A stretch of 60,202 nucleotides of DNA, from the IMG/VR virus record IMGVR_UViG_3300047094_000987, positions 1 to 60,202 of that record, one strand, 5' to 3'. The DNA is from a virus. A model generated the notes under the pieces. It did not search any database, had not been told where the DNA came from, and saw nothing but the letters and a program-made list of their open reading frames with translations. Of this stretch, positions 2,358 to 36,074 are shown piece by piece. The number at the start of each line of letters is the position of its first letter. Position 1 is the first letter of the stretch. Position numbers and translations under genes: made by a program.

Positions 2358-3851
2358 TCAGAAACGGAAGGTAGTTTGAATTACACCACCATAGTTGGAA
2401 GAGGTATCCGAAAGTGCCTGATTGTTCGAAACATAGAACACTGCAGGAGTAACAGTGATGTTGTCGCTCACACGATACTTATAGAACAGTTCCCACATAG
2501 TTGCTTCCTTAGTAAGTCCTTCTGCATTACCAGGCTGACCGATAGCAAAACCAGCAGAATTACCCTTAGCAAGTACATCAGACCACTGGAGACCAGCGTA
2601 CCAAGTTTGCGAATCGGTAGCGCCATTAGGAGTTGCTTCACCTTCGGCATTCAGACTTACAGTATTCCAACCATAACCACCACTCACAGAAGGAATGATG
2701 CCAGACTTGGAAGGTTGCCAGTAAGCACTCAGAGCATAACCATTAGAGGTTTGACCAGGAGCAAGAGCACCAGAAGAACCCAGAACACCATTGAAGGTGC
2801 GAACACGAGTGCCTTCAGTACCATAACGATAACCGAATGCAACACCATAATTAGGAGCACGGTAACCAATCTGAGCAAGAGTGTTCAGAGCACCTTTTTC
2901 GTTAAACTCACCTTTGGTGGAATCAGAACCACCTTGTGCAACATAGTTCAGACCAGCAACAAAACCTTTCTTACCTTGCACCCATTGAGCACCAAAACCA
3001 GAACCAGTTGCCTTGTTGTAGACACCAGGAGCACCAGCAAGTTGGAAGAAGTCCAGAACATCCGACTTATAAGCAGAAGGAATCCAGGTCATCTCAGTGT
3101 TACGAACCAGAGCACCAGCAGTCAGAGTTACACCCTTAGCAAGAGCAGGGAAACTATAATACAGACGATCCAGTTTAACTACATCAGCAGTGCTCTCTGC
3201 CTTATCCAGTTTGAACAGTGAAGAACTGGAACCAAAGGGTTGAGAAGAGAAATTACCAGAACGCAGACGAGTGCGAAGAAGATCCTTTCCAGTGAAAGAA
3301 GTATCAAGATTGATACGAAGATCGTAATTGAAAGCAGTATTGCCTACATTGGTACTGGCATCCTTACCAGGAACCCAAGCATTATCAACACCACCAAGAA
3401 CGAAAGATGCTTCACCTTTCAGTTTGGTAGTGGTGGAGAATTGAGTTGCTTCCAGAGCACCCACTTTTGCTTCCAGTTTATCTACACGACCACGAATTAC
3501 TGCAAGTTCATCAGCAAACTCCTTTGCAAGACGTTGAAGTTCATCAGTAACTTCGGTTACACGGTCAAGGCAAGCATTCAGAAGTGCTGCTGCCTCAAAT
3601 CGGGTCATTGCCTTACCACCACCATAGGTGCCGTTAGGATAACCAGCAACGCAACCATAACGCTCTACAAGGTTGCTGAGTGCCTGATATGCCCAATCCG
3701 AAGGTTGAACATCAGACAGTTGTGAGACACTTGTAACCTGCTCAGAAGAGTATTGGTTGACTGCTGCCATATTCAGATCTGCGGCATTCGCAGCAACAGG
3801 AGCAACCATTCCCAGAGCAACAGGTGCAAGCATCAGTTGTTTGAGTTTCAT
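2358..3851 (-). CDS. SLH-domain OprB-type outer membrane porin (SomA-like)
   Basis: The 497-aa product has a signal peptide (MKLKQLMLAPVALGM...AANA), an SLH-like domain at about 30-95 (VQPSDWAYQALSNLVERYGC, YPNGTYGGGKAMTRFEAAALLN), a short coiled coil (DELAVIRGRVDKLEAKVGAL) and a long beta-strand-rich barrel ending in aromatic phenylalanine (QTTFRF), the usual C-terminal signature of outer membrane proteins. This is the architecture of cyanobacterial SomA/OprB porins, where SLH binds the cell wall. It shares its first residues MKLK and upstream TTTTTATGAAACTCAAA with pstS. It probably changes outer-membrane permeability of the infected cell. A sigma-70 promoter precedes it. Confidence 0.85.
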   Translation of the reverse strand: MKLKQLMLAPVALGMVAPVAANAADLNMAAVNQYSSEQVTSVSQLSDVQPSDWAYQALSNLVERYGCVAGYPNGTYGGGKAMTRFEAAALLNACLDRVTEVTDELQRLAKEFADELAVIRGRVDKLEAKVGALEATQFSTTTKLKGEASFVLGGVDNAWVPGKDASTNVGNTAFNYDLRINLDTSFTGKDLLRTRLRSGNFSSQPFGSSSSLFKLDKAESTADVVKLDRLYYSFPALAKGVTLTAGALVRNTEMTWIPSAYKSDVLDFFQLAGAPGVYNKATGSGFGAQWVQGKKGFVAGLNYVAQGGSDSTKGEFNEKGALNTLAQIGYRAPNYGVAFGYRYGTEGTRVRTFNGVLGSSGALAPGQTSNGYALSAYWQPSKSGIIPSVSGGYGWNTVSLNAEGEATPNGATDSQTWYAGLQWSDVLAKGNSAGFAIGQPGNAEGLTKEATMWELFYKYRVSDNITVTPAVFYVSNNQALSDTSSNYGGVIQTTFRF

Positions 3852-3922
3852 AAAAAATTTGTTTTTAGTACTAAACGACATAGTGAAAATCGTGCAAGTA
3901 GTTGCGGCACGATTGATCACGG

Positions 3923-3956
3923 TATTTATCTTAACATTTTCTTTGGGATCAGTCAA
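3923..3956 (-). promoter_or_regulatory. Sigma-70 promoter of porin, overlapping late motif
   Basis: TTGACT (3951-3956), 17-bp spacer, TAAGAT (3928-3933) on the minus strand. The -10 is merged with GATAAATA (3923-3930), a late-promoter-like octamer, so early and late expression may both start here. Confidence 0.7.
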
Positions 3957-25141: not shown

Positions 25142-25339
25142 CTATTTACCTCCAAAAAATATTTGGGTTTCATAATACATTTCTTCTTCATAAGCAACAT
25201 AATCACTTTGAAGATAGTTAAAGAACTCTCCGTCTTCACTTCTCATAGTATAGCACCATTCATCAAAGATTTCTCCAATCCACCACCAACCAACTTGGAG
25301 TTTCTCAAAGAAGTTCATAGGTCTATTATATTTTAACAT
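25142..25339 (-). CDS. Small aromatic-rich protein, 65 aa
   Basis: MLKYNRPMNFFEKLQVGWWW continues in an acidic, Trp/Tyr-rich chain ending FGGK. The start has AGGTGGAG just before it, within the end of the homing endonuclease gene. It lies between nrdA and nrdB and may work with the reductase, but no family is recognised. Confidence 0.6.
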   Translation of the reverse strand: MLKYNRPMNFFEKLQVGWWWIGEIFDEWCYTMRSEDGEFFNYLQSDYVAYEEEMYYETQIFFGGK

Positions 25340-26009
25340 AACTCCACCTATATCCTTTACAGTGATTGAATTTTCCTTCACAGGTATATTTAATGTTAGA
25401 AGGATTTGTTTCTACAAATTTAGCAGCATCACTAATAGATTGAAACTCTCTTAAAAAGTTTCCTTCAATATCATACTGGAATACTTTGGTTCTTTTTATG
25501 TTTGGATTGTTTTTTAGTGTTTGAGAAGTTTTAGATTTACTTTCTTCTTTATGTGATTTTCCAGCAAATCCACAAGGAGATGGTTGTCCCTTTCTCATTT
25601 TACTCCACTTTTCTTTTTGTTCTTCGGTATGTGTTTGATTGTAGAATGAATTTTTATGTCCCACAAACTTTCCTTTTCTTTTTAAAGATAAAAGTTTTCT
25701 TGTATCTTTCGTATGAGAATATCCAAGAATTCCTCCATCACCACCAAGAGTTTGATTATATTTTGGTTTTAATTTAGAAATCCAAAACATTTCTCTAAAA
25801 CCTAAATTATCTTCACATTTTTCAATTTCTTCAATAATAAAATTGTCTTTTCCATACTTTCTAATTGCCCGATGAAGATATGTTGTTGAACTTCTTTTAG
25901 TGGCATCATAGCAGTGACTATAAAATCTTTTTTTCAAAGAGTTCATTGTCTTTCCAACATAAGTTTTATTATTGATTTTATTGGTTATTAGATAAATGCG
26001 TCCAGACAT
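25326..26009 (-). CDS. GIY-YIG homing endonuclease with NUMOD motifs
   Basis: GRIYLITNKINNKTYVGKT (residues 3-21) is the GIY-YIG core and AIRKYGKDNFIIEEI follows as in the family. NUMOD3-like repeats (HKNSFYNQTHTEEQKEKW, near 118) and a NUMOD1-like helix-turn-helix at the end (FQSISDAAKFVETNPSNIK) form the DNA-binding part. A free-standing mobile gene lying between nrdA and nrdB, a known hot spot for such elements. Its late promoter is embedded in a hairpin. Confidence 0.92.
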   Translation of the reverse strand: MSGRIYLITNKINNKTYVGKTMNSLKKRFYSHCYDATKRSSTTYLHRAIRKYGKDNFIIEEIEKCEDNLGFREMFWISKLKPKYNQTLGGDGGILGYSHTKDTRKLLSLKRKGKFVGHKNSFYNQTHTEEQKEKWSKMRKGQPSPCGFAGKSHKEESKSKTSQTLKNNPNIKRTKVFQYDIEGNFLREFQSISDAAKFVETNPSNIKYTCEGKFNHCKGYRWSYVKI

Positions 26010-30284: not shown

Positions 30285-30845
30285 TCAGGCGTCTGGGAAT
30301 CTGGTGTCATCAACGGCGTCACCAGTTATCATACTTCCAGCAACTAACGTTTCAGACTTAACTCTGAAGTTACCGTGCATATCAGTATATGTAGTAACTC
30401 CAACCCAACCAGCGTGAGCAACTTTATAAGCACCTGCCTTTCCACCAACTGTGGTTACACCAGCAACTGTCGTCTCAGCCGTATCTACACCAAAGACTGA
30501 AGAATATCTGTTTGATTTTGCATCAGGTGCTTTATAAACAGAATCTTCAATTGAATAGATAGGTCTTTGTGTAATGAAATAAGATGCTGCTGTGATGATT
30601 CCAGTTGTTGGGTGTGGAATCAAATATTGAGTTGTTGCGATCGATGCAATAGTGTTGCTTGTTACAGATGAGATAACTGCGTGACCATAGGTTGCGCCAG
30701 CACCAACTACAATAACATCACCTTCACTTACAGTAAATCCAGTAGTAGCAAAAGTAGTTCCAGTACCAGTGATAACTTCTGTTGAAAGGTTGATTTGAAC
30801 GGTTCCAGCCTGTCCAACTAAATCTTTATTGCCCCAAAGAGACAT
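30285..30845 (-). CDS. Virion structural protein, 186 aa
   Basis: MSLWGNKDLVGQAGTVQINL is followed by Thr/Val/Gly-rich beta-strands throughout and an end FPDA. It lacks charged disordered parts, unlike its neighbours. A perfect late promoter fused to a terminator sits 32 bases upstream. A strand-rich, late-expressed small protein fits a head or tail decoration protein (inference). Confidence 0.75.
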   Translation of the reverse strand: MSLWGNKDLVGQAGTVQINLSTEVITGTGTTFATTGFTVSEGDVIVVGAGATYGHAVISSVTSNTIASIATTQYLIPHPTTGIITAASYFITQRPIYSIEDSVYKAPDAKSNRYSSVFGVDTAETTVAGVTTVGGKAGAYKVAHAGWVGVTTYTDMHGNFRVKSETLVAGSMITGDAVDDTRFPDA

Positions 30846-31263: not shown

Positions 31264-31271
31264 TATTTATC
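31264..31271 (-). promoter_or_regulatory. Late promoter GATAAATA
   Basis: Late-type octamer overlapping the stop codon of the 663-aa gene and 31 bases before the 57-aa gene. Confidence 0.6.
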
Positions 31272-33261
31272 AATCTGCTGGTTTAGCTTGTGATCCAGGT
31301 CCAGGATTTTCTGGTTTTGGTTTACGAGTTCCCCTATACTTATTATACCCACCACGATATCCTACTGCTTTATTATGAGCACGAACATCTGGTCTCCAAT
31401 CCTCTTCACCTGGTTCATCATCTCTTTCAGAAATTACATTACCTGTTGGTTCAAAACCAGCATTTTGAAGGGGGGGAAGTTTTGCACCAGTTGCCTTTGG
31501 TTCTTGGCCCTTTGGATAAACTCTCTTACCTTTTTCACCAGGAAGAATTGGACCTGCCTCAACATTCTCATTAGCAACCATTACGATTGGATTCTTAGCA
31601 CCCATCGCCCTCAACTTATTCTTGATCAAGTTAATCTTTGCATAATCGCCACGAGTGTCCTTCTTCTTTTCGTCTTCGGATGAGCACTGCTCTTCATTAA
31701 CCTTAGTCTGATTTTTGACTGTTCTGTGTTTTACTTGTCCTGGCATACCATCACGACTTAATGCATACTTTTTCTCATCTGCTCTCTGAGACTCTTTAGA
31801 TGGAAAATATCCAGATTCTTCAATCTTTTCAGGAAGACCCTTGTGCTTTGTCTTAGCAAATTTCTTTGCTTCTTTCTTGGTCATACCTTTTGCTGCTGCT
31901 TCAACCTCAGGTGATGCCTCACCTTTTTTCATCTCACCCTTTTTACGGGCATAAACCATTCCCATAAAACGCTGTTGTGCTTTACTCATTGCTTTTTCAG
32001 AAATCAGTTCACCTTCAAGTTCAGTATGTGCATAAACTGCTTTTGGTCCAGTTGAAATAGTTTGAGTTCCATCTTCTGGAGAAATTTTAACAACACCAGA
32101 AGAATAATTGTCAACTTTGGTTGGATTTATTTTCTTACCTTGACCTTCTGTACTATCAGTTCCTTCAGCCCACAGATAATCTTCTTTTTTTACATCTTCA
32201 CCAGGTTCATACCATTTACCATCACCATCACTATCTTGCCAGCGTGGTTCGGATGTTTTTTTATGCTTCTTAGATTTTTTAGATTCGACTAATTTACCCT
32301 CTGGTTCAAAATGAGCAACTTGTGTAGTTTTTTTAGTGTCCTTTTTAACAGATGGAAATCCTTTAACTCCATATGGTCTCATCTTCAAAAGATTTAGATT
32401 AATCGCATCCATATTTTGTTTGATATCATCAGCATCACCATGAACTCCTTGACGCTGATCACGAACAACTCTTCTTGCTCTATCACCAATTTCACTCTCA
32501 TCAATCATCTGCCCATCCATTTCATAAGAAGAAGAAACTGTCTTTCTCTTCTCAATGGCAGCACCAATTGCAGCACGACGCTTCATAATGTACTTGTCAT
32601 TTGGATCATTATGCTTACCATCATTGTCTGGATCACTATCTTCCTTGCCAACTGGATCTAGTTTTGGTTTTTTACCACCAGGGCGTCCACCACCGGTAGC
32701 ACGTGCAGTTTCTTCACCTCTCTTTTTTTCTCCCTCTCTTGGTTCACCATACTCGGTGAGTTCAACTTTCAGACCTTTTGATCTAAGTTGAGTGATTTTT
32801 TCACGAGTTCCATATCTGACATAAGAGTTTCCAGTCTTAGGATCTGTAACTCTAATCTTATATTTCTTGTCGTCTAGTCCGTGCAGTTCCTCTAAGTAAT
32901 CTGGAACAATTTCTTCAACACCCTCAACAAAAACCTTAAACATTGCATTTGCAATATTAATTGCAGCAGCATCTTCCATCATAGGAATAAAATCTTCCGC
33001 AACAGCGGCTTTCTTAGAAACCATTTGTCTTGCTCTTGCCTTTACAGCAGGAATTGCAGTTGATTTAGCAATTCTTCCAAGAACCATTCTTTCTTGCGAT
33101 GCAGGATCCGCTCTTTTACCTGCTAACATTTTTTTAACTTCATAACGAGAATCATAAACAAGCTGTCTTGCCTTCTTTTCAATGCCAGCAGCAGCATCTG
33201 CACCAGGTTTTGCTTCACCACCTTTTCTGGATGGAAGTTCCTCAAAAATATTGTTACTCAT
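31270..33261 (-). CDS. DUF3008-containing charged virion-type protein, 663 aa
   Basis: A DUF3008-like domain near 430-490 (AMSKAQQRFMGMVYARKKGE...KFAKTKHKGLPEKI) lies in a long, highly charged disordered chain. Two Asp-rich loops (DSDPDNDGKHNDPNDK and WQDSDGDGKWYEPGED) resemble calcium-binding EF-hand or dockerin loops. The segment RDQRQGVHGDADDIK...PYGVKGFPS is shared with the gene at 52174. Several L/IxE sites (ELISE, KIEES, VISER) might be cut by the head protease. Likely an internal or head-associated protein (inference). Confidence 0.75.
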   Translation of the reverse strand: MSNNIFEELPSRKGGEAKPGADAAAGIEKKARQLVYDSRYEVKKMLAGKRADPASQERMVLGRIAKSTAIPAVKARARQMVSKKAAVAEDFIPMMEDAAAINIANAMFKVFVEGVEEIVPDYLEELHGLDDKKYKIRVTDPKTGNSYVRYGTREKITQLRSKGLKVELTEYGEPREGEKKRGEETARATGGGRPGGKKPKLDPVGKEDSDPDNDGKHNDPNDKYIMKRRAAIGAAIEKRKTVSSSYEMDGQMIDESEIGDRARRVVRDQRQGVHGDADDIKQNMDAINLNLLKMRPYGVKGFPSVKKDTKKTTQVAHFEPEGKLVESKKSKKHKKTSEPRWQDSDGDGKWYEPGEDVKKEDYLWAEGTDSTEGQGKKINPTKVDNYSSGVVKISPEDGTQTISTGPKAVYAHTELEGELISEKAMSKAQQRFMGMVYARKKGEMKKGEASPEVEAAAKGMTKKEAKKFAKTKHKGLPEKIEESGYFPSKESQRADEKKYALSRDGMPGQVKHRTVKNQTKVNEEQCSSEDEKKKDTRGDYAKINLIKNKLRAMGAKNPIVMVANENVEAGPILPGEKGKRVYPKGQEPKATGAKLPPLQNAGFEPTGNVISERDDEPGEEDWRPDVRAHNKAVGYRGGYNKYRGTRKPKPENPGPGSQAKPAD

Positions 33262-33275
33262 TGGGGAAAGATTGA

Positions 33276-34505
33276 TTACTTACTTTTTCTATACTTATTT
33301 ATGAATTGTCTTCCCCAAGTACGTCCAGGAACCATCGTCTCAACATATTCACGATATGCATCAGTTCCAACAAGTCTTTGATCAGCAGGAACACCACTTC
33401 TATTTGTAAGTTTTGCTTCCATCACATCCTTAATCCAAGACTTAAACATAATATGGTCTTCTGTGACACAGATCAAGTAATTAGTTCCACGACGTATAAT
33501 GCGTCCAATAAGACCAGTATTTAGATTCTCAACCAACTGCCCAATCTTAAAGATTGCTTCTCTAACATAGTTTTCGCGCAAAGTACCCTGATCAAACTTA
33601 GGTGCAATCTCCCAAACTTCTGCAACCTGATCTTGAATGCCCATTGCAGCACGAACAGTATCAAAAACTGCTCTTGCATCTTTTGGTCTCATATCTGGTG
33701 GCATTCCTAAACGAAATGTTTTGAAATCACCTTCAGCAGCAGCAAGACGCATTCTGGATGCAGAAAGACCTTCAACACCATCAGAGTCTGGATCTCGGTC
33801 ACCAGCAGAAACTACCTCAATATTATCAAAGGCATAAAGATTTCCATTGTAATTATTGGCAAGTTTGTTAAATTCATTCACTCTATCGGCACCACCAACG
33901 ATTCTCACATTCGTATATCCATCATTATGTGCTTTTTTAAGAACATCAAAAATAGTTCTGGTGTTGGCATCATTTACAATTCTCTCACTATGCTGAGGGA
34001 ACATTGATCTCATCAATGCAACTTTTGTATCAGCATCAAGGGGATTCTTTTTCTTATCTTGTGTACGAGAAGGAATAATCATATAGTCACTACCTTCTTG
34101 CTCTGCCGATGCAGCAGCAGTATCCATCAGTTGAAGATGTCCCAGATGTGGAGGATTGAAACGACCAAATGCAATCGTTAATGTTCCTTTTGTCTTTTCA
34201 ACAGGAAGGAAATTTACAGGTGGTGCTTCCTGAGCAACTGGTTGAGGAGCAGGTGCTTGCTGTTGTTGTAATACGGGATCTACAAAATTTGGATCTGAGA
34301 TATTCTTTTCAGTCTCTGTCTGAGCAGGATCTTTACCAATTCCTTGACGCTTATTATAAAACTTCAACCTACCTTTTTCAGTCTTTGCGACAAACTCTCC
34401 CGTTTTTCTATCATACCATCCGCCGTGCCCATCACCTTGCAACCCAAGTCTTGCTGCCTGTTGGGAAGCAGTTGTTTCTGTTAAAAATTGGAAAAAACTT
34501 TTCAT
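33276..34505 (-). CDS. Nucleotidyltransferase with capsid-targeting-like N-terminus, 409 aa
   Basis: Residues 1-10 MKSFFQFLTE match the pattern of T4 capsid-targeting sequences (MKxxxxFxxE). A basic linker follows. From about 110 the cytidylyltransferase fold is clear: FGRFNPPHLGHLQLMD has the HxGH motif and GLSASRMRLA the late SxxxR motif. The C-terminal 140 residues are a separate domain (IIRRGTNYLICVTED). The family joins a nucleotide to small substrates such as NMN, pantetheine phosphate or choline phosphate. Packaging in the virion is inferred. Confidence 0.82.
   Translation of the reverse strand: MKSFFQFLTETTASQQAARLGLQGDGHGGWYDRKTGEFVAKTEKGRLKFYNKRQGIGKDPAQTETEKNISDPNFVDPVLQQQQAPAPQPVAQEAPPVNFLPVEKTKGTLTIAFGRFNPPHLGHLQLMDTAAASAEQEGSDYMIIPSRTQDKKKNPLDADTKVALMRSMFPQHSERIVNDANTRTIFDVLKKAHNDGYTNVRIVGGADRVNEFNKLANNYNGNLYAFDNIEVVSAGDRDPDSDGVEGLSASRMRLAAAEGDFKTFRLGMPPDMRPKDARAVFDTVRAAMGIQDQVAEVWEIAPKFDQGTLRENYVREAIFKIGQLVENLNTGLIGRIIRRGTNYLICVTEDHIMFKSWIKDVMEAKLTNRSGVPADQRLVGTDAYREYVETMVPGRTWGRQFINKYRKSK
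33296..33303 (-). promoter_or_regulatory. Late promoter CATAAATA before 663-aa gene
   Basis: Late-type octamer 34 bases before the 663-aa gene, lying inside the end of the nucleotidyltransferase gene. Confidence 0.65.
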
Positions 34506-34720
34506 TACTTATATTTCTTATTGAGTTCAATAGTTATTGCTTTTTCGTTTGCAATAATATAATTTAAAAAATTTTGTCTGACCTTTATATATTTATCCTT
34601 ATCCTGCTTTTTCTTTTTTAAATCAATATCTTTTTGCATTTTTTTAAATACAAATAATACAAAGTCTTTAAACTCTTTACCTTTAAACTCTTTGATAAAA
34701 CCTTGAATATTTTTATCCAT
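34505..34720 (-). CDS. Lysine-rich helical protein, 71 aa
   Basis: MDKNIQGFIKEFKGKEFKDF continues as a Lys-rich amphipathic helix with nearly a third Lys, including a KKKKQDKDKY run. It directly precedes the nucleotidyltransferase, sharing one base. The codons spell an internal GATAAATA at 34590-34597 that may serve as the downstream gene's late promoter. Confidence 0.65.
   Translation of the reverse strand: MDKNIQGFIKEFKGKEFKDFVLFVFKKMQKDIDLKKKKQDKDKYIKVRQNFLNYIIANEKAITIELNKKYK
34590..34597 (-). promoter_or_regulatory. Possible late promoter GATAAATA within a gene
   Basis: Late-type octamer 85 bases upstream of the nucleotidyltransferase start, inside the 71-aa coding frame. Confidence 0.45.
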
Positions 34721-35977
34721 TTAACTTACCTGAAAACCAATTCTATCGTCTGTTCTTGTCGCATAGTTAGATGTTCTTAAATAAAGGTTTCTTACCAAAG
34801 ATGTCCCACCACCAGCAGAAGCGGTAAATGTTGGTCTTCCAGTTGTCCTGTTCAAATCCAGTTTAGCATAGATTACTCTAGATTTGTTCAAAAAAACTTC
34901 AAATATTTCTTTCAAGACCCTATTTTGTGTTCCACTCTTTGACCAACTTTCAATAGATTGTTCGCATTGATATCTAATTTCACCATAGGTAACATTTTTT
35001 ATATTTGATTTACTTTTTTTAGAAGGAATATGTATATTCACAAAATTCTGCCAAATAGAAGGATCAGATATCTTTTTATTTGATTGTGGTCCACTTGTAT
35101 AATTTGCGTTTATATCAGCAATACAAGCATCAGTTATCTCATTGTTACTTTGAATAATTCTCCAAGTGTAAAAAGGACCGTGTACGGTGGACTTTCTACC
35201 CCTCTCATCTGCCAGTGATTGAAGAACTCTATACTCAGTCGTTGAAGTTAAATTATATTCTGTAATATAAGGAATAACGAATTGAGGTTTAACCTGGTTA
35301 GAAACACCTCTTGCAGACTTAGCAGATATCAAATATTCATCATTACCAACTATTAATTTATAATCATATAGCGTTCCACTCTCAGGAGCTATATAAATCG
35401 ATGCTCCACCCAAACCAGCAGTATTTACTATTCCACTCAATATACCATCTCTGTTTCTAGCACAAGATAGTGCCCCAATCACTTCTCCAAAAGAATTTTG
35501 CAATGGACCCCAAGGAAAATTATCCATTTTTATACCATTATAATTACCATAACCTTGATAGGCATAATCTAATAATTCATAAAGATAATCAAATAATTCA
35601 CCAGGAATATCATTCCTAGAATTTAATGCGGAAATTATACTATTATAATAGTCAACACTTGAAAAAAATGTTTGATTTGCTAATCCGAAACTCGATGGGG
35701 TCAATCTTATTGCCTGCGCCTGAAAAGAATTTGGTTTAACAAAATAATCAACATTTCCATAATAAACAATACCATCGGCAGTTCTGAATGCTGCTCTTAA
35801 ATGATTTTCAGTTAGTGAATCAATATAAGTTACCTCTGTTCCTGGTGATAAAGCACCTGCTGCTTGAAAAGAACCAGAATCGTTCTTAGTAAACACACTA
35901 ACAGTCTTTTTTACAGTAGTTTGGTGATCACTTCCTTGCCAGTTTCTCTGGAAGTTTAATATACCAGAACTTGCCAT
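34721..35977 (-). CDS. Unknown late-type protein, 418 aa
   Basis: MASSGILNFQRNWQGSDHQT starts a protein with a small beta domain (about 1-80), a helical region (YNSIISALNSRNDIPGELFD) and the conserved-looking stretch YKLIVGNDEYLISAKSARGV, which resembles the core strand of PD-(D/E)xK nucleases only weakly. The ATG at 35977 was chosen since earlier starts fall in tRNA-Leu. CTAAATAT 13 bases before the ATG region may be a weak late promoter. Structural protein or nuclease, unresolved. Confidence 0.65.
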   Translation of the reverse strand: MASSGILNFQRNWQGSDHQTTVKKTVSVFTKNDSGSFQAAGALSPGTEVTYIDSLTENHLRAAFRTADGIVYYGNVDYFVKPNSFQAQAIRLTPSSFGLANQTFFSSVDYYNSIISALNSRNDIPGELFDYLYELLDYAYQGYGNYNGIKMDNFPWGPLQNSFGEVIGALSCARNRDGILSGIVNTAGLGGASIYIAPESGTLYDYKLIVGNDEYLISAKSARGVSNQVKPQFVIPYITEYNLTSTTEYRVLQSLADERGRKSTVHGPFYTWRIIQSNNEITDACIADINANYTSGPQSNKKISDPSIWQNFVNIHIPSKKSKSNIKNVTYGEIRYQCEQSIESWSKSGTQNRVLKEIFEVFLNKSRVIYAKLDLNRTTGRPTFTASAGGGTSLVRNLYLRTSNYATRTDDRIGFQVS

Positions 35978-35992
35978 TTTTGAAATATTTAG

Positions 35993-36074
35993 TGCCCAAA
36001 AGAGGACTTGAACCTCCACAGAATACTCTACTGGAACCTAAACCCAGCGCGTCTACCAATTCCGCCATTTGGGC
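35993..36074 (-). tRNA. tRNA-Leu(TAG)
   Basis: Acceptor GCCCAAA/TTTGGGC, class II variable arm, T-loop GGTTCAAGTCC, anticodon loop TTTAGGT reading TAG, 82 nt. Confidence 0.94.

Follow-up and report, generated by a model that had tools for sequence, protein, structure and literature searches.

The gene analysed here lies at positions 33276..34505 on the minus strand of a 60,202-nucleotide stretch of viral DNA (IMG/VR record IMGVR_UViG_3300047094_000987; the whole stretch is called the window below), the source of which is a marine T4-like cyanobacterial virus. This 60-kb record also carries uvsX, a gp41-type helicase gene, mazG, a primase gene and ribonucleotide reductase genes. The open reading frame (ORF) runs from an ATG at 34505 to 33276 and encodes a nucleotidyltransferase of 409 aa that opens with MKSFFQFLTETTASQQAARLGLQGDGHGGWYD, the N-terminus of which (MKSFFQFLTET) holds a putative capsid-targeting sequence (CTS). 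It is a member of the cyanomyovirus core family T4-GC190 (‘cytitidyltransferase’), an assignment for which both full-length homology and synteny (mazG ... nucleotidyltransferase ... primase-nrdA) were found, and it matches PHROG 395 (1.5e-102). Relatives are encoded by 530 phage records, mostly of cyanomyoviruses, and that of P-SSM2 is 67% identical to the window protein over its full length.

Upstream of the gene lie mazG, gp41 and uvsX, and downstream lie the DNA primase gene and nrdA. Segments of one downstream neighbour (31270..33261, minus) match ORF92 (57% over 47 aa) and ORF93 (70% over 56 aa) of phage S-SCSM1, and a further one (30285..30845, minus) is 40% identical to S-SCSM1 ORF95; all three S-SCSM1 proteins are flagged as virion proteins. 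The upstream ORF at 34721-36019 (432 aa) was considered as a relative of the S-SCSM1 virion protein ORF90 and showed no similarity to it. Between this ORF and the nucleotidyltransferase gene is a conserved 71-aa ORF (34505..34720, minus; [DN]KYIKIR...YI.AN) with no family match, which was considered as a further internal protein and rejected, since only 5 of 58 relatives begin with a CTS-like sequence. A late-promoter-like ATAAATA (34590..34596, minus) is found 85 nt upstream of the start and overlaps codons of the 71-aa ORF. The heptamer occurs 20 times in the window against 16.7 expected, and its retention in 76 of 81 close relatives falls inside the codons for the conserved [DN]KY of that ORF. 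The evidence for a late promoter is thus weak, since the sequence is not enriched and coding can account for its conservation, and it was dropped as a strong argument. An earlier note on this DNA had placed the gene behind late-type signals among virion-type genes; the ATAAATA is indeed there with the limits just given, and the two downstream neighbours do match virion proteins, whereas mazG, gp41, uvsX, primase and nrdA make up the rest of the surroundings. Elsewhere in the window, a homing endonuclease gene (25326-26009, minus; PHROG 314, 1.2e-35) sits between nrdA and nrdB, and a phage OprB-type porin gene with an SLH domain (2358-3956, minus; Pfam 1.5e-12 and 1.1e-8) adjoins a gene for a PstS-like phosphate-binding protein (1251-2279, minus), the pair being cyanobacterial in type by appearance.

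The protein is built from several distinct parts. The CTS (residues 1-10, MKSFFQFLTE; 34476..34505, minus) ends at a predicted prohead-protease cut between E10 and T11 (34476/34475). It is followed by a ‘DGHG’ module (residues 14-53, QQAARLGLQGDGHGGWYD..GEFVAKTEKGRLKFYNKR; 34347..34466, minus) with the consensus ..LGL.sDGHG.w.D..g..vAkT..G.L.f, which is also found behind the tag in the phrog_3561 protein of phage S-CREM2, and twice in a kinase of the same phage. A variable Q/P-rich linker (residues 54-105; 34191..34346, minus), with low model confidence over residues 51-98, leads into the HxGH nucleotidyltransferase domain (residues 106-290; 33636..34190, minus). Beyond this domain are a five-stranded SH3-like module (residues 318-364; 33414..33554, minus; phrog_4808), the fold of which is suggested by predicted strands, and a C-terminal tail (GTDAYREYVETMVPG...FINKYRK, residues 365-409; 33279..33413, minus). 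A separate C-terminal domain of 140 residues had been expected; the part beyond the catalytic domain exists, but comprises about 117 residues. The SH3-like module occurs as a stand-alone ORF in Syn1 and S-PM2 (L095:3040-3318 and L096:4788-5063), where it is annotated as ribonucleotide reductase, probably a misannotation.

A close known counterpart of the tag is the capsid-targeting sequence of IPII and IPIII (Mullaney and Black 1996; review PMC9026906), internal proteins of T4 that both open with MKTYQEFIAEA in the T4 record. In T4, ten residues are enough for packaging, mutagenesis has assigned targeting mainly to residues 4 and 7 and processing to residues 8 and 10, and gp21 cleaves after the motif [LI]xE (PMC9026906). 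The window protein has a tag of about ten residues at its extreme N-terminus, with F4, F7 and LTE as the [LI]xE at positions 8-10, and when MKSFFQFLTE/T is set against T4 MKTYQEFIAE/A, residues 2, 4, 7, 8 and 10 are either identical or differ by a Y/F or I/L exchange. Across 37 aligned relatives of diverse origin M1, K2, F4 and F7 are invariant, E10 is present in at least 90%, and length variation starts immediately after E10. The tag was also surveyed in 161 relatives of the window and S-SZBM1 types, taken from two IMG/VR scans: 145 carry the strict motif and 12 more carry variants (e.g. MNFTQFLREA, MLTFHVFITEA), with no clean cut site in two that open MKFFHQFQES and two that open MKNFFQFVQN. 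The cut site is shifted or degenerate in 4 of 81 close relatives of the window protein. In the Syn1-like subgroup all 80 of 80 members are the bare catalytic domain without a tag, from which it follows that the role of the enzyme does not always need a CTS. The 60-kb window, being a fragment, has no gp21-type prohead protease or capsid genes within it; such a protease is encoded by S-SCSM1, S-SZBM1 and S-CREM2, and the presumed major capsid proteins of three relatives have the cut sites FLAE/A, ILTE/A and LLTE/A. On a Syn1-like contig with an untagged nucleotidyltransferase, a 121-aa protein (L148:3561-3923, plus) opens with MKTYTEFIAEA, a start that is nearly the same as that of T4 IPIII. A replacement CTS on the DUF6267 ligase-like neighbour in untagged Syn1-like phages was ruled out, the N-termini there reading M[AS]NxxQLKHLEHLED.

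Members of the family that carry the tag have been detected in virions by mass spectrometry. Passages of the published proteomes report a ‘putative citidylyltransferase (T4-GC190)’ in purified S-SM1 virions (PMC3037559), ORF91 in S-SCSM1 virions (PMC9602691), S-SZBM1_140 with two peptides and an emPAI of 0.26 (PMC9146016), and S-CREM2 ORF154 with three peptides (PMC10665884). The first of these corresponds to SSM1_190, which is GC 190 in its record, begins MKKFSAFLNEA and is 39% identical to the window protein over its full length; S-SCSM1 ORF91, flagged in its record as a virion protein, begins MKSFLQFLKEA and is 50% identical, again at full length. The N-termini of the other two are MRFRQFIIEA (S-SZBM1_140) and MKNFSSFLTEA (ORF154). 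By contrast, the S-PM2 relative (S-PM2p139) has an unrelated N-terminus without a CTS, and in the passage concerned the S-SM1 protein is listed among nine that are absent from the S-PM2 virion detections; eight others were missed too, seven of them T4 structural homologues, which makes this weak evidence (PMC3037559). For S-CBWM1, virion presence is reported by way of a citation only. The copy number in virions looks low (emPAI 0.26; two to three peptides), and the authors of two virion proteome papers allow for carry-over of abundant proteins. Detection of tagged relatives in four phages, together with the constancy of the T4 targeting and cleavage positions and the confinement of the motif to ORF starts (see below), supports what the earlier note had proposed from the letters alone, namely that the N-terminus resembles T4 capsid-targeting sequences and that the nucleotidyltransferase is likely packaged. 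We hold packaging in the virion to be very highly probable and its direction by the CTS to be highly probable.

To see how often the tag arises by chance, all open frames of at least 60 codons in the window and in S-SZBM1, S-SCSM1 and S-CREM2 were searched for K.[FY]..F[LI].E. Among these roughly 448,000 residues there are six occurrences, in all six cases right behind a start codon and nowhere else. When all frames of S-CREM2 were searched, the strict motif picked out exactly four ORFs: an APH-like kinase (MKRFDAFLTE), a SAM hydrolase (MKDFDSFLEE; Pfam S-AdoMet_lyase 2.3e-19), a 78-aa protein (MKDLHSFLTE) and the nucleotidyltransferase. Each of the four appears in the published virion list, which holds 52 of 219 ORFs (hypergeometric P = 0.003), and 6 of 9 tagged ORFs are in the lists when the three phages are pooled (P = 0.002), both values treating CTS ORFs as independent. 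Missing from the virion lists are one small CTS ORF in S-SCSM1 and two in S-SZBM1. When IMG/VR was searched with a degenerate DNA pattern for MK[ST]F..F[ILM].EA, at least 120 stretches matched; the 80 loci taken from these hold 83 matches, of which 80 are ORFs of at least 60 aa and three run off the contig end. The 83 listed matches fall into 30 clusters, the largest of which is the nucleotidyltransferase (33/83, a share that depends on the order of listing and is no population estimate). The tag is also found on a GNAT, on a protein with an RlpA-like domain and on DUF6267, and marine SAM lyase relatives often begin MKTFQEFMVEC or MKTFKEFISEA. The S-CREM2 kinase, used as a query against viral contigs, returned no matches.

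Several other loci touch on this repertoire. Small CTS-tagged proteins of uncertain function occur on viral contigs at L376:1208-1858, L372:519-1097, L373:590-1054 and L412:6502-8321; some resemble an ADP-ribosyltransferase, HAD or M78 peptidase by eye, and all are candidate injected effectors. DUF6267-type proteins with a ligase-like VKWDGAPA motif (L349:4695-5945, plus; L084:33477-34670, minus; L097:1556-2788, plus) are encoded on contigs that also carry the nucleotidyltransferase gene, and in S-SZBM1 the two genes are adjacent; the L349 protein has its own CTS, and phrog_455 spans DUF6267 and nucleotidyltransferase domains. In S-CREM2, gp12 (L101:7704-10313, minus), annotated as CRISPR Cas9, is the phrog_3561 protein with a CTS-like stretch and a DGHG module. 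The stretch reads LRFASFMAEA, is preceded by a CTG codon and stands at residue 17, which leaves an internal tag or a misassigned start as the two options. A Pfam search of this protein finds no domain, Cas9 included, and given also its CTS-like stretch and DGHG module the Cas9 label is doubtful.

The catalytic domain was assigned to the HxGH nucleotidyltransferases by its nucleotide-binding and catalytic motif GRFNPPHLGH (residues 114-123; 34137..34166, minus) and by a match to Pfam CTP_transf_like over residues 111-212 (4.5e-11, passing the cutoff), in agreement with the initial call. Among 252 family domains, every one has both [HT]xGH (H in 130, T in 122) and S.[ST]..R, the latter seen here as SASRMR (residues 248-253; 33747..33764, minus) and shared with NMN/NaMN and pantetheine-phosphate adenylyltransferases (PPAT), whereas the RTxGIST signature of CTP-using enzymes of the CCT/TagD type is present in 0 of the 252. 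In a 55-member domain alignment GRFxPP..GH, K56, S143 and R148 never vary, whether the protein carries a tag or not. The full-length model (pTM 0.45) serves for domain layout only, and 55 relatives were used to fold the catalytic domain anew (residues 106-294, mean pLDDT 91.9). Its top PDB folds are the NaMN adenylyltransferase NadD (8aih, 1.3e-6), PPAT, human NMNAT and FAD synthetase, adenylyltransferases throughout, with query-normalised TM-scores of 0.50-0.65 and PPAT structures highest; no cytidylyltransferase is among the 50 best. The top PDB sequence matches are NMN adenylyltransferases. Across the 55 domains, TIGR01526 (NadR-type NMN adenylyltransferase) matches 55, TIGR00482 matches 43 and PPAT matches 26, and FAD synthetase profiles, like those of PPAT, match weakly; the equivalog cutoffs of NadD, NadM and NadR are unreached (TIGR00482 27.2 against 112 bits; TIGR01526 22.3 against 341 bits). 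By sequence and modelled fold the domain thus resembles NMN/NaMN and phosphopantetheine adenylyltransferases, which makes adenylyl transfer, rather than CTP chemistry, quite probable. The best guess for the substrate, going by sequence, would be NMN/NaMN, at just under an even chance.

Starting from what is directly observed, that is the ORF, the tag motif with its conservation, the catalytic motifs and, from the work of others, relatives in virions, we infer a location inside the head, cleavage, ejection, a substrate and a purpose, as follows. The CTS, through F4 and F7, would bind the scaffold core of the prohead, and the prohead protease gp21 would cut after L8-T9-E10. The mature enzyme would stay in the head with the DNA and enter the cyanobacterium at infection, where an adenylyltransferase of NMN/NaMN-PPAT type would, ahead of any phage gene expression, convert a mononucleotide and ATP to a dinucleotide cofactor, of which NAD(+) or NaAD is the likeliest. 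Taken whole, this account is likely. The detections in virions might instead reflect an ordinary auxiliary metabolic enzyme, expressed late inside the cell and carried along when particles are purified, its N-terminal motif serving another role; the carry-over raised in passages of two proteome papers, the few peptides seen and the bare untagged versions in Syn1-like cyanophages, RaK2 and Serratia phage BF are consistent with this. It is an unlikely reading, as four phages gave independent detections, the positions used for targeting and cleavage in T4 stay constant while the residues around them vary, and the motif alone selects four S-CREM2 ORFs that are all in the virion list.

Where the packaged enzyme acts on a different substrate, it might be PPAT-like (phosphopantetheine), FAD-type, or adenylylate a phage- or host-specific molecule or macromolecule. 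The PPAT structures with the top TM-scores (up to 0.65, query-normalised), the weak PPAT and FAD synthetase profile matches with no equivalog cutoff reached, and domain fusions in other phages (phrog_455, nucleotidyltransferase plus DUF6267) all point this way; against it, the NMN/NaMN adenylyltransferase profiles match more members than does PPAT. We regard such a substrate as a serious possibility, somewhat below an even chance. The GenBank name, the Pfam name CTP_transf_like and one paper, which in the passage concerned cites glycerol-3-phosphate cytidylyltransferase (PMC9146016), suggest a cytidylyltransferase that uses CTP to modify lipid or teichoic-acid head groups. This is very improbable: it lacks sequence or fold support, RTxGIST and cytidylyltransferase folds being missing as described and the glycerol-3-phosphate cytidylyltransferase profile reaching only E = 0.96. 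‘Cytidyltransferase’ is probably a misnomer, because RTxGIST is absent. Among the substrates offered in the earlier note, NAD and CoA precursors are accordingly the best fit by sequence and fold, and lipid head groups fall away.

Virion presence of the relatives and CTS-directed packaging in T4 are already known. The predicted NAD-type enzyme shares with T4 IPII/IPIII the ten-residue N-terminal tag (residues 2, 4, 7, 8 and 10), the [LI]xE/small-residue site and relatives found in virions. Unlike the small T4 internal proteins, it carries the tag on a 400-aa enzyme encoded by a cyanomyovirus core gene, with an extra DGHG module next, and its CTS cleavage is predicted from sequence. It belongs to the same family as the T4-GC190 proteins found in the virions of S-SM1, S-SCSM1, S-SZBM1 and S-CREM2; the passages on these describe no CTS, and the names given there (cytidyl- or NMN-adenylyltransferase) rest on annotation. 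With NadD, NadM and NadR it has in common HxGH, S.[ST]..R, a Rossmann-like fold and profile matches in all family members; in contrast to them it scores far under the equivalog cutoffs and has no Nudix or kinase partner domain, and its activity is predicted. Packaging of NAD-network enzymes has been proposed for phage NAD(+)-salvage and NAD-depletion counter-defence (NadM/NadR with NadV; PMC9503650), which likewise involves HIGH-superfamily adenylyltransferases in large myoviruses; unlike those systems, no NadV or Nudix partner is found in the annotated parts of the window. The CTS has already been suggested as an evolutionary device for loading various proteins (PMC9026906). By analogy with IPI, the anti-restriction protein of T4 (PMC9026906), the co-packaged SAM lyase may point to protection early in infection or to a conditioning of the host. 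A link between the CTS and this cyanophage enzyme, or a tag on unrelated enzymes, was not found in the literature searched, and capsid targeting together with cyanophages gave one incidental match, most preprints and subscription journals lying outside the search.

Cyanomyoviruses are abundant killers of ocean picocyanobacteria. We lean slightly towards the view that in marine T4-like phages the CTS is a general swappable delivery tag on unrelated enzymes, with the nucleotidyltransferase as an NAD-type cofactor enzyme delivered at entry. The proposed repertoire comprises the adenylyltransferase (commonest, and core), SAM lyase, protein kinase, GNAT, RlpA-like and DUF6267 proteins, some with the DGHG module next to the tag. 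Several groups have reported the enzyme in virions without a route of entry; a conserved T4-type tag would explain the packaging, would let it be tested with a single point mutation or peptide, and would give a sequence rule for other proteins injected with phage DNA. If the swappable-tag reading is true, a ten-residue search predicts injected effectors even in phages that have no other annotation. The conserved tag would also shift a ‘cytidyltransferase’, so far labelled a metabolic gene, to the entry effectors, with a bearing on how phages deal with host NAD and early defences.
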